The notes below the pieces were generated by a model. It was not told the DNA's origin. It made no database searches and saw nothing but the letters and a program-made list of their open reading frames with translations. This document shows, piece after piece, positions 56,355-61,868 of a stretch of 64,000 nucleotides of DNA. Source of the DNA: Alphaproteobacteria bacterium. GTDB lineage: Bacteria > Pseudomonadota > Alphaproteobacteria > Micavibrionales > Micavibrionaceae. The first letter of the stretch is position 1. Every line of letters starts with the position of its first letter. The DNA lies in contig JAUIIA010000002.1 of the NCBI GenBank assembly GCA_030432025.1, positions 62,001 to 126,000 on the forward strand, given 5' to 3'. Made by a program: the position numbers and the translations under genes.

Positions 56355-56849
56355 TTAGTCGTCATCTTCTTTGAGTTTTTTCACGAACGCGTTACGGAAC
56401 GAATAGACGCGGTCCTTGAAGCCTTTCGGTGAAACCCCGCTTGCAAAGGCGTCCGAACCATCAGACCCGCCATCATCTTCCAGCGACAAAGACACCGTAC
56501 CGATCAGCTTGTCTACATCCGTAGCCTGTACATGCAGCTCTTTCAGGCGCAGCATAATCTCCTGCTCCTCTTCGCCGTAATCACCGTCAATATGAACCAG
56601 TTCATGCGCAAATTTGAAAAACGCGGCCTGATCCTTCGGCTCGGTAATCATCTTATACATTGCCTCGATATCTTGCGCGTTCTTCGCATCCTCATGCAAC
56701 TGCGCACGTTGTTCCTCGGAAAAACTCACATCAGCCAGCGCCGTCGCCATAAAACGAACCTCTTCGTCCGTTACGACATGATCGGCATGCGCCACCGCAA
56801 ACAATGTCCGCCACATATAGTATTCGCTTTCCGAAACCCCATCACCCAT
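56355..56849 (-). CDS. TerB-like protein, copy 2
   Basis: 164 residues from ATG 56849, overlapping the upstream paralogue by 8 bp, with AGGAAGGA as ribosome binding site. Helical TerB/DjlA-N-like core: WRTLFAVAHADHVVTDEEVR and FAHELVHIDGDYGEEEQEIML. Homologous to the gene just upstream, so a tandem duplication. The tail (about 115-164) is Gly/Ser/Asp-rich, then basic. Family members relate to tellurite resistance or membrane stress, but the role here is unknown. The acidic pairs (HADHVVTDEE, HIDGDYGEEE) may bind metal. Confidence 0.75.
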   Translation of the reverse strand: MGDGVSESEYYMWRTLFAVAHADHVVTDEEVRFMATALADVSFSEEQRAQLHEDAKNAQDIEAMYKMITEPKDQAAFFKFAHELVHIDGDYGEEEQEIMLRLKELHVQATDVDKLIGTVSLSLEDDGGSDGSDAFASGVSPKGFKDRVYSFRNAFVKKLKEDDD

Positions 56850-57357
56850 GAGCCAGTCCTTCCTCTTCCTCATAAAACGCAATCATTTGATAAATAATAT
56901 GCTTCATCATTTCTTCTTCACTGGATGTCGCTTGCTCTTCTATCGGCAAGTCCGGCTTGCGGTTCATCCAACGTAAATCCCGTTCATACTGGTGCACTTC
57001 ATCGCCCAGGTCAGTTTTAATCGCTTCGATAATCGCCATTTCCTGCTCGTGCAAGAATCCATCGCACCAGATCATGATCCGCGCTAAACGAAAAAACTGT
57101 GCGCGGTGATGTGGCAATTCAATGGCTTGAAACAAATTAAGCGTATTGCCGGCCTTGGTCATATCACCCAAAACCTCTTCGCGCTGCGCGTCAGCAAAGC
57201 TGAATATTTTCATCACCTCTTCGACCAGCGCACGCTCGGAATCAGCCACCTCGCCGTCCACATGCGCAAGCGAGAACACAGCCCGCCACAGGGCAAACAT
57301 TTGCTCATCGGGTGCTTGAGACGCTTTATATTCGATTTGACCTAGAAGATGTTCCAT
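56842..57357 (-). CDS. TerB-like protein, copy 1
   Basis: 171 residues from ATG 57357, taken because upstream sequence lacks family features; no strong ribosome binding site. Core matches its neighbour: WRAVFSLAHVDGEVADSERALV and ARIMIWCDGFLHEQEMAIIEAI. Conserved Asp/Glu pairs of the TerB type are present. It is divergent from the LexA-controlled polymerase gene with only 124 bp between, so the operator there could affect both. Confidence 0.75.
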   Translation of the reverse strand: MEHLLGQIEYKASQAPDEQMFALWRAVFSLAHVDGEVADSERALVEEVMKIFSFADAQREEVLGDMTKAGNTLNLFQAIELPHHRAQFFRLARIMIWCDGFLHEQEMAIIEAIKTDLGDEVHQYERDLRWMNRKPDLPIEEQATSSEEEMMKHIIYQMIAFYEEEEGLAHG

Positions 57358-57419
57358 CTTTTGTATTGAAGCCTGTTCGCGTCTTTCTGGCAAGTCCTTA
57401 ACTTTAAAAGAATAAAAAT

Positions 57420-57434
57420 GTTCTTGATTTGTTC
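57420..57434. promoter_or_regulatory. LexA/SOS operator
   Basis: GTTC, seven bases, GTTC: the LexA box of alphaproteobacteria (different from the E. coli CTGT palindrome). It lies 47 bp before the GTG of the Y-family polymerase and 62 bp from the divergent TerB-like start. Confidence 0.8.
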
Positions 57435-57481
57435 TTGTTGTGTGATATCCTGAAACCATCATCTGGAAAAGGAACACCGAA

Positions 57482-58762
57482 GTGAAGCGTGAAGACACCA
57501 TCAAATGGCTCTTTGTGGATCTCAACAGCTATTTTGCATCCGTAGAGCAAAACGAAAACCCGTCCTTACGCGGTAAACCTGTCGCCGTTGTGCCTATGCC
57601 GACAGAGCACACATGCGCTATCGCCGCGTCTTATGAGGCCAAGGCTTACGGTGTAAAAACGGGCACAATCATCCGCGATGCCCGTAACATGTGCCCGAAC
57701 CTGATTTGTGTACCCGCGCGGCACGACGTCTATGTCCGTTACCACAACCGTATTCTGGAAGAATTCATCAAACACGCCCCTATTAACAAGGTCTGGTCGA
57801 TTGATGAATGGTCCTGCCGCATCCCGCCCGGCAAACGAACAGTCGAAGACATCATGCAAATGTCCATGAAGATCAAGCAAGGCATCTGGGACAATATCGG
57901 CCCGTCAATCAATTGCTCCATCGGCGCGGCACCGAACTCTCTACTCGCCAAAATCGCGGGCGACATGCAAAAACCTGACGGACTAACCATCCTGCGCCCG
58001 CAAGACCTACCAGGCCGCCTACTCGACCTCAAACTTACTGACCTGCCCGGCATCGGCGTTAACATGGAACGCCGCCTGAACCGCGCCCGTATTTTCACGG
58101 TGGAGGATTTCTGGAACACATCTCCTAAACATGCCCGCCGCATCTGGGGCAGCGTACAGGGCGAGCGCTTCTGGTACTGGCTGCACGGCTACGATTTCAA
58201 GCAACCCGAAACGCAGCGTAACGTGATGATCGGCCACTCCCGTGTCCTCGACCCGAACCTGCGCTCTCCTGATAAAGCACGGTTGATGGCCCGCCGACTA
58301 TTAACCAAAGCTACATACCGCTTACGTCGCAAGGAATATTACGCCACCACCCTTTCTCTAGGCGTGCGCACGACAACGGGCGAACGCTGGCGGCGGGAAA
58401 TCCACCTTGCAACACCGGCGCAAGACCCTTTCACATTCATGCAGCATCTGGAAACACTCTGGATCGACATGATGGGCGAAATGAGTGGCTACACAGCGCC
58501 GACATTCAAAAAAGTTTCAACCATCCTGAGCGGACTAAAGCATAAACATGAAATTACGGGTGACCTGCTGGACGAACGTTTTCAGGAAAACATGGAAAGC
58601 CTGAAAAAACGCGAAGCCCTTGCCGACGCACTCGATGCATTACAAAACAAATATCAAAAGGAAACCGTCTATGTCGGCACGACACCGAAAACAATATCCG
58701 GCTATGTCGGTACGAAAATCGCCTTCTCCCGCGTACCGGAAGAAGAAGAATTCTGGAATTAA
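57482..58762 (+). CDS. Y-family translesion DNA polymerase
   Basis: 426 residues from a GTG start. It copies past DNA damage. The two catalytic centres are intact: FVDLNSYFASVEQ and SIDEWSC, with metal-binding Asp and the Asp-Glu pair. The helix-hairpin-helix LTDLPGIGVNMERRL follows, as in DinB/UmuC. The C-terminal portion lacks a recognisable beta-clamp motif that I can point to with confidence. It is closer to DinB/UmuC-type than to ImuB because both catalytic centres are present. A LexA box precedes it, so it should be DNA-damage induced. Confidence 0.9.
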   Translation: MKREDTIKWLFVDLNSYFASVEQNENPSLRGKPVAVVPMPTEHTCAIAASYEAKAYGVKTGTIIRDARNMCPNLICVPARHDVYVRYHNRILEEFIKHAPINKVWSIDEWSCRIPPGKRTVEDIMQMSMKIKQGIWDNIGPSINCSIGAAPNSLLAKIAGDMQKPDGLTILRPQDLPGRLLDLKLTDLPGIGVNMERRLNRARIFTVEDFWNTSPKHARRIWGSVQGERFWYWLHGYDFKQPETQRNVMIGHSRVLDPNLRSPDKARLMARRLLTKATYRLRRKEYYATTLSLGVRTTTGERWRREIHLATPAQDPFTFMQHLETLWIDMMGEMSGYTAPTFKKVSTILSGLKHKHEITGDLLDERFQENMESLKKREALADALDALQNKYQKETVYVGTTPKTISGYVGTKIAFSRVPEEEEFWN

Positions 58763-59538
58763 TTACCGGAAACGACGCGATCATTTAGAGGCTGGATCGG
58801 CCGCGCATTCACAGGGAACAACGCTTGAAACGCTTTAAGCTGCGTCTCGGACAACTCAACCGTATCCTTCATCACGAACCACTCAACACCTTCCGTACAT
58901 GGTGGCGTTGTCAGCGAACCTGTGTAGTGATAATGTGACAGGCTTTGCGGCATCAACGCACCAGCGTTGATTTTCACCGTACCGACCTCTTTGGTCTCAC
59001 CGGCTGTAATCGGTGCATTCTGCCAGATACCTTCGATAACAGGATTATGCGCACCCAACTTCAACATCACGGATACAATACCTACGGAACCGCTTTCGGT
59101 CTGATGCACAAACTGCGCTTCCATCGGGTATGGCGCGCCATCGAGGTAATGCTCACTCGGTGTATGGAATGTCAGCTTCAACAGATTGTATTGCTGACCG
59201 TTATTCGTGAAATAACTGCCCTCGTCGAAGTTCACTTCAACCGTCTTGCCGTTATTGTAAACAGACAGACCGGAATCCACGTATCCAGGCTCGAGCGCAG
59301 GCATGTTCGTTTCCTGCAGATATTCGGAAATGTTAATCGGAGACTGCGACTGACCACTCACGCATGTGTCGTAAGACGAATTCAATGTGCCCCAATATGC
59401 TGCAGCCGTCGTGCCCGTATACCCCCACGCCGCTGACGGTGCGGTTTCAGCCAAACTTACTGCGTCTTCGTCTTGCGCAAGCGCCTGTGAACTGAAACCA
59501 AGAACCAAAGCCGTGCTGACGAGCAAAAATCTTTTCAT
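58759..59538 (-). CDS. Alpha-carbonic anhydrase homologue missing two zinc ligands
   Basis: 259 residues from ATG 59538, with a signal peptide ending ALA before Gln (about residue 21). The alpha-CA fold is clear: SQSPINISEYL, PSEHYLDGAPYPMEAQFVH, LSHYHYTGSLTTPPCTEGVEWFV (part shown). In active enzymes the three zinc ligands lie in FHFHxPSE and MEAHFVH. Here they read LTFHTPSE and MEAQFVH, so the first His is Thr and the third is Gln; only one His remains. CO2 hydration is therefore unlikely. It is like the eukaryotic CA-related proteins. The 3' end overlaps the polymerase gene by 4 bp, convergently. Confidence 0.88.
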   Translation of the reverse strand: MKRFLLVSTALVLGFSSQALAQDEDAVSLAETAPSAAWGYTGTTAAAYWGTLNSSYDTCVSGQSQSPINISEYLQETNMPALEPGYVDSGLSVYNNGKTVEVNFDEGSYFTNNGQQYNLLKLTFHTPSEHYLDGAPYPMEAQFVHQTESGSVGIVSVMLKLGAHNPVIEGIWQNAPITAGETKEVGTVKINAGALMPQSLSHYHYTGSLTTPPCTEGVEWFVMKDTVELSETQLKAFQALFPVNARPIQPLNDRVVSGN

Positions 59539-59671
59539 AGTAATCCCCGAATGTATGTGTAACTGGCAATGAGTGTACTCGCAGCACACTTAAAATAAAA
59601 GGGGCCAGCGATTTTTTTATGCTCATGTTTTGTTTGCGAAATTTCGGGGGATTTGATACATCCTTGCCACA

Positions 59672-61093
59672 ATGAAAAACAACGTCATTCACATAGTGGG
59701 CGCAGGCCTCGCCGGATCGGAAGCCGCATGGCAAGCCGCCAATATGGGCGCGAAAGTGATCTTGCACGAAATGCGCCCCGAAGTTGGCACCCCCGCCCAC
59801 TCCACGGGCAATGCGGCGGAGCTGGTTTGCTCCAACTCCTTCCGCTCGGATGATGCGGAATATAACGCGGTTGGCTTGCTGCATGCCGAGATGCGCGCCA
59901 TGGAATCCCTGATCATGCTGGAGGGCGACAAAGCCGCCGTCCCCGCGGGTGGTGCACTCGCCGTTGACCGCGACCGCTTCTCCGAAGGCGTTACCCAAGC
60001 CCTGATCGACCACCCCAATGTTACGATCGAAACAGGTGAGGTTGCGGGCATCCCCCCCGCCGAGTGGAGTAACGTGATTATCGCCACAGGGCCACTGACC
60101 AGCGATGCGCTCGCCAAGGACATAGCCGAGCTAACGGGCGAAGGCGAACTGGCATTCTTCGATGCCATCGCGCCGATCGTCCATACAGACAGCATCGACA
60201 TGAACATCGCATGGTTCCAATCCCGCTACGACAAGCCCGGCCCCGCGGGCAGCGGTAAAGACTACATCAACTGCCCGATGACGAAGGAGCAGTACGAGAC
60301 CTTCATCAACGAATTGCTGAACGCCGAATACGGCCTGTTCAAGGAATGGGAACTCCCCTCTGGCTCCAAATCCCTCGCGGAACAGGAAGAAGACACGCCT
60401 TATTTTGACGGCTGCATGCCGATAGAGGTCATGGCCTCCCGCGGACCGGAGACATTGCGCTTCGGCCCCATGAAGCCTGTCGGCCTGACCAATCCGAACG
60501 CGGAAGAACAACCCTACGCCGTTGTGCAACTCCGCCAAGACAACGCACTCGGCACGCTATACAACATCGTCGGCTTCCAAACCAAAATGAAATGGGGCGA
60601 ACAAACCCGCGTCTTCCGTATGATACCGGGTCTGGAGAATGCGGAATTCGCCCGCCTCGGCGGACTGCACCGCAACACCTTCATCAATTCACCGAAATTG
60701 CTGGACGGGCAGCTTCGCCTGAAAGCCGATCCCCGCCTCAGATTTGCGGGTCAGATCACGGGCTGCGAAGGCTATGTCGAAAGCGCGTCCGTCGGTTTAA
60801 TCGCGGGTCGCATGGCCGCCAGCCAAGCTCTGGGCCTAGACTTCGAACTCCCGCCCGTCACAACCGCACATGGCGCATTGATCAACCACATCACGGGCGG
60901 CGCAGAGAGCGAAACCTTCCAACCAATGAATGTAAATTTCGGCCTCTTCCCCCCACCCGAAAATCCATTTCAGGTCATGCCGAACGGCAAACGTAAAAAG
61001 CTCAAAGGCAAAGACCGCAAGAAATGCTACACCGCCCGCGCGATGCAGGACCTCAATAACTGGCTATCTGGAAACAAGGAAAAAGCAGCTTAA
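59672..61093 (+). CDS. trmFO: Folate/FAD-dependent tRNA (uracil-54) methyltransferase TrmFO
   Basis: 473 residues. It methylates U54 of tRNAs to ribothymidine with methylenetetrahydrofolate. FAD motif [19 protein letters not shown] (in part: [11 protein letters not shown]), the [19 protein letters not shown] segment (in part) with its catalytic cysteine, and [19 protein letters not shown] ending. Length is standard. Its last 77 bases are repeated at 61904-61980. It is divergent from the carbonic anhydrase homologue. Confidence 0.96.
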
Positions 61094-61172
61094 GCCCTTT
61101 CTTTTCTTAGGAAAAGCCACCACCCTGAGGTCGGCTTGTCCAACCCCTCACCTTTTAGTAAGCTGATCCGTG

Positions 61173-61868
61173 ATGGAAAGATCCCGACACATATTTCACA
61201 GCACTATCGTATTGCTCTTGCTGCTTGTTTTAACAGCCTGCAAACAAGAGCCGCCTGCAGCGTGCGCAGAGATAGGGAGCACCTGCCCCGACGGTTCTTT
61301 TTATATGGGAACAGGCTTGGAAGGCCAAAACATCTTTACCCATAAGGACCATATCGAAAGCTTTTATCGCTTCTTCTCGGAAAACTTTCAGCCCAAGTAC
61401 AAAGATACTTACCTTTCCTCAAAGCAAGGCTGTTATGAATTAGGAGACACAAAAGCCTGCAACTCAGGACAAGATAACACCGAGCTTCTGGCCGAACTAA
61501 GTGACATTGAACAAGATAAGGTGCACTTGGCTGCTCTCGCCTGTTTTTGCCTGGGTGAGGAGCACGAAAACGCTCCGAATAAAAAGGTGCCCGACATATG
61601 CGCGGGTGATCTTGCCAAGACCAATACCCTCGATGGTCACGGTCATGATGACTGGTATTTGCCTTCAATCAAAGAACTGCAATACCTGTACAATGAAGTA
61701 TCTACTCGCAAAGAAACGCCGGTAGCAAAGTCATTTAGTAACAATCACTATTTGAGCTCGTCTGTAATTTCAGGCCGCAGGGTATGGGCAATATATTTTG
61801 GAAGTGATGAGTTAAAGAAATACGACAACCACTCATCCAATAATGTCCGTTGCCTGCGCAGCAATTAG
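61173..61868 (+). CDS. DUF1566 (Lcl C-terminal) lipoprotein
   Basis: 231 residues from ATG 61173, or a GTG one codon earlier. Signal sequence with lipobox LVLTAC. Cysteine-rich: CKQEPPAAC, CPDG, CYELGDTKAC, CFC, ICAG, RCLRS. The last half has the DUF1566 pattern HDDWYLPSIKELQYLYN followed by YLSSSV and WAIYF. DUF1566 proteins are surface or secreted, with no general function known. It lies inside an 887-bp segment between trmFO and a second copy of trmFO's tail, so it may be a late arrival. Confidence 0.82.
   Translation: MERSRHIFHSTIVLLLLLVLTACKQEPPAACAEIGSTCPDGSFYMGTGLEGQNIFTHKDHIESFYRFFSENFQPKYKDTYLSSKQGCYELGDTKACNSGQDNTELLAELSDIEQDKVHLAALACFCLGEEHENAPNKKVPDICAGDLAKTNTLDGHGHDDWYLPSIKELQYLYNEVSTRKETPVAKSFSNNHYLSSSVISGRRVWAIYFGSDELKKYDNHSSNNVRCLRSN

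Follow-up and report, generated by a model that had tools for sequence, protein, structure and literature searches.

Does a protein with the fold of an alpha-carbonic anhydrase (CA) but without a complete zinc site still act as an enzyme, and what does it do if it does not? The question is raised by a gene (P0001) in the window analyzed here, a stretch of 64,000 nucleotides from a member of the family Micavibrionaceae. The coding sequence (positions 58759 to 59538, minus strand) was identified as an open reading frame of 259 codons whose product matches the Pfam profile PF00194 (Carb_anhydrase) over residues 54 to 257 (E value, 1.6e-37; bit score, 130; cut-off, 27). A Sec-type signal peptide, MKRFLLVSTALVLGFSSQALAQ, was recognized by eye (59473 to 59538, minus strand; the cleavage point is uncertain by ~1 residue), suggesting that the protein is probably exported to the periplasm. 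Frame 1 of the plus strand is broken by stops across 58759 to 59538, and a 163-residue antisense frame that is present in the window (58945 to 59436, plus strand) was taken as a chance occurrence. Scans of positions 58700 to 59760 gave no promoter-like sites (1.2 in shuffled sequences) and one terminator-like site (1.1 in shuffled sequences), neither of which is above chance.

An earlier note, made from the letters of this DNA, had proposed that two of the three zinc histidines are lost, pointing to the motifs LTFHTPSE and MEAQFVH and to the codons ACA and CAG. Both motifs and both codons are as described, and alignment to solved bacterial alpha-CA chains places Thr123 and Gln142 opposite two zinc histidines and His125 opposite the third. 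Positions 92, 106, 107, 117, and 199 and the remaining ones follow the usual CAII assignment, and Gln92 is the second-shell partner of His94. The numbering is that of human CAII, with positions 64, 94, 96, and 119 as given in the excerpts of PMC5437132. In place of the triad His94/His96/His119, the window protein has Thr94 (Thr123; 59170 to 59172; codon ACA), His96 (His125; 59164 to 59166), which is the sole ligand retained, and Gln119 (Gln142; 59113 to 59115; codon CAG). Two replacements, both to lysine, go beyond what the earlier note listed: Lys98 stands at the position of the proton shuttle His64 (59245 to 59247; codon AAG) and Lys121 at that of Gln92 (59176 to 59178). The gate residues are retained as Glu129 at the Glu106 position (59152 to 59154) and Thr210 at the Thr199 position (58909 to 58911; this and all the preceding codons are on the minus strand). 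According to the alignment, Trp209, Val207, Val121, Leu198, the cysteine pair, and Tyr7 are kept as well, and the protein also has Glu117, Ser197, and Gly196. With Glu106, Glu117, Thr199, Val207, Trp209, and others in place, the substrate pocket is largely present around the emptied metal site.

The earlier note had also named an alternative histidine at the metal site as something that would overturn its view. By alignment position, no candidate for a substitute ligand was identified, and none of the other histidines appears to be placed so as to take over the site: two stand at CAII positions 107 and 122, and the others are H164, H202, and H204. The last two, at positions 191 and 193, are new and, given the CA structure, presumably face outward. 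They belong to a His202-Tyr203-His204 run on one strand (58927 to 58935, minus strand), which, of the 18 sequences in alignment A1, only the window protein and its relative in genome G004 have; this run may form a metal site at the surface or may have no meaning.

An AlphaFold2 model built from a 40-sequence alignment (mean pLDDT, 84.6; pTM, 0.81) has bacterial alpha-CA structures as its top-ranked counterparts among the matches listed (Z, 29.6 to 30.8; rmsd, 1.9 to 2.2), and the closest solved chains by sequence include the bacterial alpha-CAs 6eki, 6im0, and 1kop. The window protein has the same fold as the enzymes of Neisseria (1kop), Persephonella (6im0), and Thermovibrio (4c3t) and the vent enzyme 6eki. 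The bacterial periplasmic alpha-CAs and the window protein have the cysteine pair, Glu106/Thr199, and the CO2-pocket residues in common, whereas two zinc histidines, His64, and Gln92 are replaced in the window protein. Its PF00194 homology and a model Z of ~30 place it in the alpha-CA superfamily; descent and fold make it an alpha-CA, and its zinc triad does not.

PF00194 genes were identified in 18 of the 104 genomes of the family and in all seven of the genus. The zinc triad (residues at 94-96-119) is altered in seven of the 18 carriers: it is T-H-Q in the window protein and in G004, E-H-Q in G012, and N-H-Q in G030, with single-ligand changes to N-H-H in G001 and G002 and to H-H-Q in G061. 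Within the genus, two copies have two ligands changed, two have one changed, and three (G003, G005, and G006) are canonical. The change noted earlier is therefore shared by G004, while other family members are partly altered or canonical. The G004 protein, a same-genus orthologue that is 87% identical, has all four changes (64, 92, 94, and 119) in common with the window protein, which means that these are neither chance nor assembly errors. We found no evidence in favor of a sequencing or assembly error behind the altered site, and the identical residues in a diverged second genome refute it in practice, leaving it a negligible probability.

The divergent neighbor of the gene is trmFO (59672 to 61093, plus strand; NCBIfam TrmFO), which serves here as a locus marker with no functional link claimed. 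A divergent trmFO lies within ~0.8 kb of the CA gene in all 11 relatives read (of 17 other family members), independently of the state of the zinc site. The two genes are neighbors in the window and in each of the six other members of the genus that were read, with a short frame of uncertain worth intervening in G002 and G041. The family copies thus look like orthologues at an inherited locus. On the other side, a converging gene (57482 to 58762, plus strand) resembles Y-family DNA polymerases (DNA polymerase IV models, below cut-offs) and accompanies the CA gene in 3 of the 11 relatives. Two adjoining proteins are encoded at 56355 to 57525 (minus strand), which we presume to be TerB-like, and a relative of the one at 56355 to 56882 was found on the side of the CA gene away from trmFO in 10 of the 11 relatives read. 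A short putative lipoprotein (by eye; 61170 to 61868, plus strand) gave a subthreshold match to a model of the fimbrial tip adhesin FimD (E value, 7.9e-7; bit score, 28; cut-off, 170). No functional link to the neighboring genes was found, and none of them points to sensing or adhesion; trmFO, fdxA, and cysK are housekeeping genes that also flank the copies of canonical relatives.

When the trait columns were removed before tree building, the window protein and G004 grouped with the canonical copy of G003, with a support of 95 (SH-aLRT) in a large quick tree and of 97/94 in a careful family tree, in which the branch to the pair is 0.54 compared to 0.085 for the canonical sister. The inherited trmFO locus and this canonical sister in the same genus indicate that the zinc site was lost recently, at a locus that had not moved. 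A single origin of the five family rows with Gln119 was weakly disfavored (p-AU, 0.044). The window protein, G004, and G012 could be held together without rejection (p-AU, 0.075), so that those two origins of Gln119 may be one. L182 (G745), which comes from a different family within the phylum, sits on a long branch inside the clade of the window's family, possibly by horizontal transfer or as a long-branch effect. A beta-CA match is present in all seven genomes of the genus, including that of the window, and general or cytosolic CO2 hydration therefore need not rest on the window protein; with regard to gamma-CAs, there are three hexapeptide-repeat matches in the window's genome.

Comparison of the window gene with that of G004 gave a dN of 0.090 and a dS of 1.25 by NG86 and values of 0.085 and 1.11 by YN00. 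The resulting dN/dS of ~0.07 indicates constraint and lies within the NG86 range of four neighboring genes (0.035 to 0.108; trmFO, 0.08; the polymerase-like gene, 0.05; the terB-like gene, 0.11; cysK, 0.03). Nine canonical family members define 82 near-invariant positions, and the seven of these that differ in both the window protein and G004 (residues 79, 98, 121, 123, 142, 154, and 202 of the window protein) include the four sites at 64, 92, 94, and 119. A hypergeometric test gave a P value of 1e-4 with five sites picked after the changes were known and of 0.02 with a wider list of 18 pocket residues, 16 of which are among the 82. When each of six canonical members was set against the other eight, it differed at three to seven near-invariant positions, and their departures on the pocket list total one. 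The gene is therefore under constraint, with the losses falling on the catalytic center. A relaxed gene on its way to becoming a pseudogene would fit the long branch to the pair (0.54, compared to 0.085 for the sister) but is very improbable, as the reading frame, signal peptide, and predicted fold are all intact, dN/dS has been ~0.07 since the two species split, and joint alteration spares 75 of the 82 near-invariant positions.

The wider survey comprised 204 proteins, namely, the window protein and those of 199 loci obtained by draws at the family, order, class, and phylum levels and by a genome scan. It is not unbiased: 79 loci (L022 to L100) were picked because they have the conserved motifs and resemble the window protein, and all of these have an unaltered zinc triad. 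Some rows are near-identical (e.g., L020/L022 and L077/L139), and one partial class match (G288) was left out. Four fragments without all sites (L018_1, L043_1, L204, and L205) stand outside the count of 200; L205 has Gln at 119, and L204 and L018_1 have His. Among the 200 sequences readable at all three sites, 179 are H-H-H and 21 are altered. The commonest altered triad is N-H-H (three sequences), followed by T-H-Q, H-H-Q, E-H-Q, D-R-Q, and R-H-Q (two each) and by N-H-Q, D-H-H, Q-R-Q, E-H-H, K-H-Q, E-R-Q, Q-H-Q, and H-R-Q (one each). Altered triads were seen in 6 of 29 loci of the class draw and in 1 of 80 of the motif-based genome scan, the latter being G012 again. With 21 of 200 readable sequences of this biased survey lacking an intact triad, a PF00194 match is insufficient to annotate CO2 hydration.

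Position 119, when changed, is Gln in 16 of 16 sequences, and the best tree requires 12 changes there. L018 was kept outside the trees, and L195, with a very long branch, is in the counting tree and was pruned from the display only. Six independent pairs involving Gln119 were obtained on starred branches of the quick tree, which are rated less safe when long rows are present. Two of the eight nonsynonymous single-base changes of a His codon give Gln, so that, with equal rates, six of six would arise by chance with a probability of ~2e-4. The replacements at position 94 are varied (T, E, N, D, Q, R, or K). Judged from these alignments, zinc-site changes of this kind have arisen several times among related bacteria. 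Gln119 went together with loss of His94, His64, and Gln92 in 4 to 4.5 of the six independent pairs and in the opposite direction in at most 0.1, which is not significant. His64 is present in 166 and Gln92 in 174 of 178 H-H-H sequences, making H64K and Q92K of the window protein unusual losses; since His64 is missing from 12 of the 178 as well, absence of the shuttle is not decisive by itself. All 16 Gln119 sequences hold Glu106 (178 of 178 H-H-H sequences), Thr199 (176 of 178), Glu117, Val207, Trp209, Ser197, Gly196, and both cysteines. Of the 16, 8 retain Val121 and 13 retain Leu198, and the CO2 pocket is thus not intact in every zinc-less relative. Raw counts had linked Gln119 to His107 (15 of 16 versus 90 of 178 H-H-H sequences) and Glu117 (16 of 16 versus 135 of 178), a link that vanished once relatedness was controlled.

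CA-fold proteins without zinc are known in eukaryotes and viruses. With at least one zinc histidine missing, the window protein is a CA-related protein (CARP) in the loose sense, and it would work like one if inactive. CARPs VIII, X, and XI also have the CA fold and lack zinc histidines, and they are eukaryotic and of independent origin; their titles are absent among the 50 structure matches listed, which is uninformative on relatedness. Of the earlier suggestion of a secreted bacterial counterpart of the CARPs, the CA fold lacking a complete zinc site and the signal peptide (by eye) are well supported, as is purifying selection, and noncatalytic action like that of the eukaryotic CARPs is a reasonable expectation. 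Because its sister is the canonical bacterial G003 and its trmFO locus is inherited, the protein does not belong to the animal CARP/RPTP clade, a call made from the bacterial sister and synteny with eukaryotic sequences outside the tree. Bacterial CARPs were not reported in the literature searched, which omits most subscription journals. Yam dioscorin, a storage protein whose origin is separate from that of the window protein, and the plant CAL enzymes likewise combine the alpha-CA fold with changes to the zinc ligands. Dioscorin 5 (4twl) aligns to the window model with a Z of 26.4 and has Gln at the position matching 119 in the alignment. The human PTPRZ CA-like domain (3jxf) aligns to the model with a Z of 25.5. 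In the excerpts of PMC11215419, the CA-like domains of RPTPgamma and RPTPzeta lack two zinc histidines and the shuttle, as does the window protein, and mostly keep the other CA residues, with Gln175 at a zinc-ligand position of RPTPgamma; the authors suggest that these domains still bind CO2/HCO3-. Unlike the window protein, these domains belong to membrane receptors of animals (PTPRZ and PTPRG) and have a hairpin that binds contactin, and their origin is separate. The Toxoplasma protein TgCA_RP has Lys64, Gln119, and the Glu/Thr gate, like the window protein, and is reported to be inactive, also after one or two zinc-site residues were mutated to His (excerpts of PMC5437132); it differs in having Phe94 and in being GPI anchored in the rhoptries, and its origin is independent. 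Plasmodium PfCA, of the eta class, is described in the same excerpts as active with H94/H96/Q119. It shares Gln119 with the window protein but keeps His94 and His96, and the window protein, in which Thr94 replaces His94, is therefore not of the eta class.

Taken as a whole, we put the probability at roughly 0.6 that the protein is an exported former alpha-CA that acts as a noncatalytic periplasmic binding protein for a small ligand or a partner, by analogy with the RPTP CA-like domains and the CARPs. Useful CA activity is very probably absent. The ancestor was probably an ordinary periplasmic alpha-CA at the unmoved chromosomal locus, and, within the genus, the zinc site (H94T and H119Q) was lost together with the shuttle (H64K) and Gln92 (Q92K), with the scaffold remaining under purifying selection. 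Such a protein would be expected to lack catalytic zinc and to hydrate CO2 to no useful extent, and the emptied, Lys-bearing pocket could hold a small ligand, with CO2/bicarbonate or another small anion as the first candidate; the two extra lysines would be compatible with an anion. A protein partner may be bound besides or instead of such a ligand. Several observations speak against a binding role: no gene nearby hints at sensing or adhesion, with trmFO, fdxA, and cysK being housekeeping genes; Val121 and Leu198 are altered in 8 and 3 of the 16 Gln119 sequences; the association of Gln119 with loss of His94, His64, and Gln92 is below significance; and Gln119 alone fits an active enzyme, as in PfCA (excerpts of PMC5437132).

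The last point leads to an enzyme that works weakly, in which His96, Gln119, and water or another residue would loosely hold zinc or another metal and give low CA activity in a metal-rich periplasm. CAII reportedly keeps activity after His-to-carboxamide ligand changes (a study of 1997), and single-change forms (N94 or Q119 alone) exist in the family of the window, but threonine is a poor zinc ligand and the window protein has lost two ligands, Gln92, and the shuttle. While the activity of PfCA with Gln119 counts in favor of residual catalysis, TgCA_RP, also with Lys64/Gln119, is inactive despite the restoration of one or two histidines (excerpts of PMC5437132), and modeling of human CA2 gave H119N and H119Q the lowest predicted zinc probability (excerpts of PMC10175565); taken together, we regard weak metal-dependent activity as quite unlikely. 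The fold might instead catalyze a different reaction without zinc, as do the plant CALs in alkaloid scaffold formation. PtCAL-1 and PtCAL-2 lack two and three zinc histidines, respectively, and their biosynthetic activity is unaffected by a zinc chelator (excerpts of PMC10700139), and the window protein retains Glu106 and Thr199 and gains lysines at 64 and 92. The CALs serve plant specialized metabolism and are of separate origin. No biosynthetic gene cluster was seen around the gene of the window protein, whose flanking genes are common to canonical relatives, and a new enzymatic role is unlikely. The binding protein remains the preferred reading. A generalization of it is tentative and somewhat doubtful, namely, that bacteria follow a stereotyped route in repeatedly turning exported alpha-CAs into pocket proteins free of zinc, in which His119 becomes Gln, His94 is replaced variously, and His64 and Gln92 are lost, often to Lys, Arg, or His. 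Such proteins would form a hidden bacterial counterpart of the CARPs and RPTP CA-like domains, with the genus of the window retaining canonical and halfway forms, and the emptied, positively charged pocket might serve in sensing or carrying by binding bicarbonate/CO2 or a different anion. Since canonical, one-changed, and two-changed copies occur at trmFO in one genus, the route from enzyme to nonenzyme is directly testable.

Some other survey sequences have unusual features. G367 has two alpha-CA homologues, L112 and L200, with zinc ligands altered in both (D-H-H and H-R-Q), and G264, of the same genus as G367, has one canonical and one H-H-Q copy. Four alphaproteobacterial sequences (L127, L128, L189, and L191) have His96 replaced by Arg, His94 replaced by a charged residue, or both; their states are D-R-Q, E-R-Q, and K-H-Q, they form a loose tree group (support, 57), and a side-chain salt bridge possibly replaces the metal in them. 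In addition, the alpha-CA gene of L158 (G530) contains one in-frame TGA in the search output.
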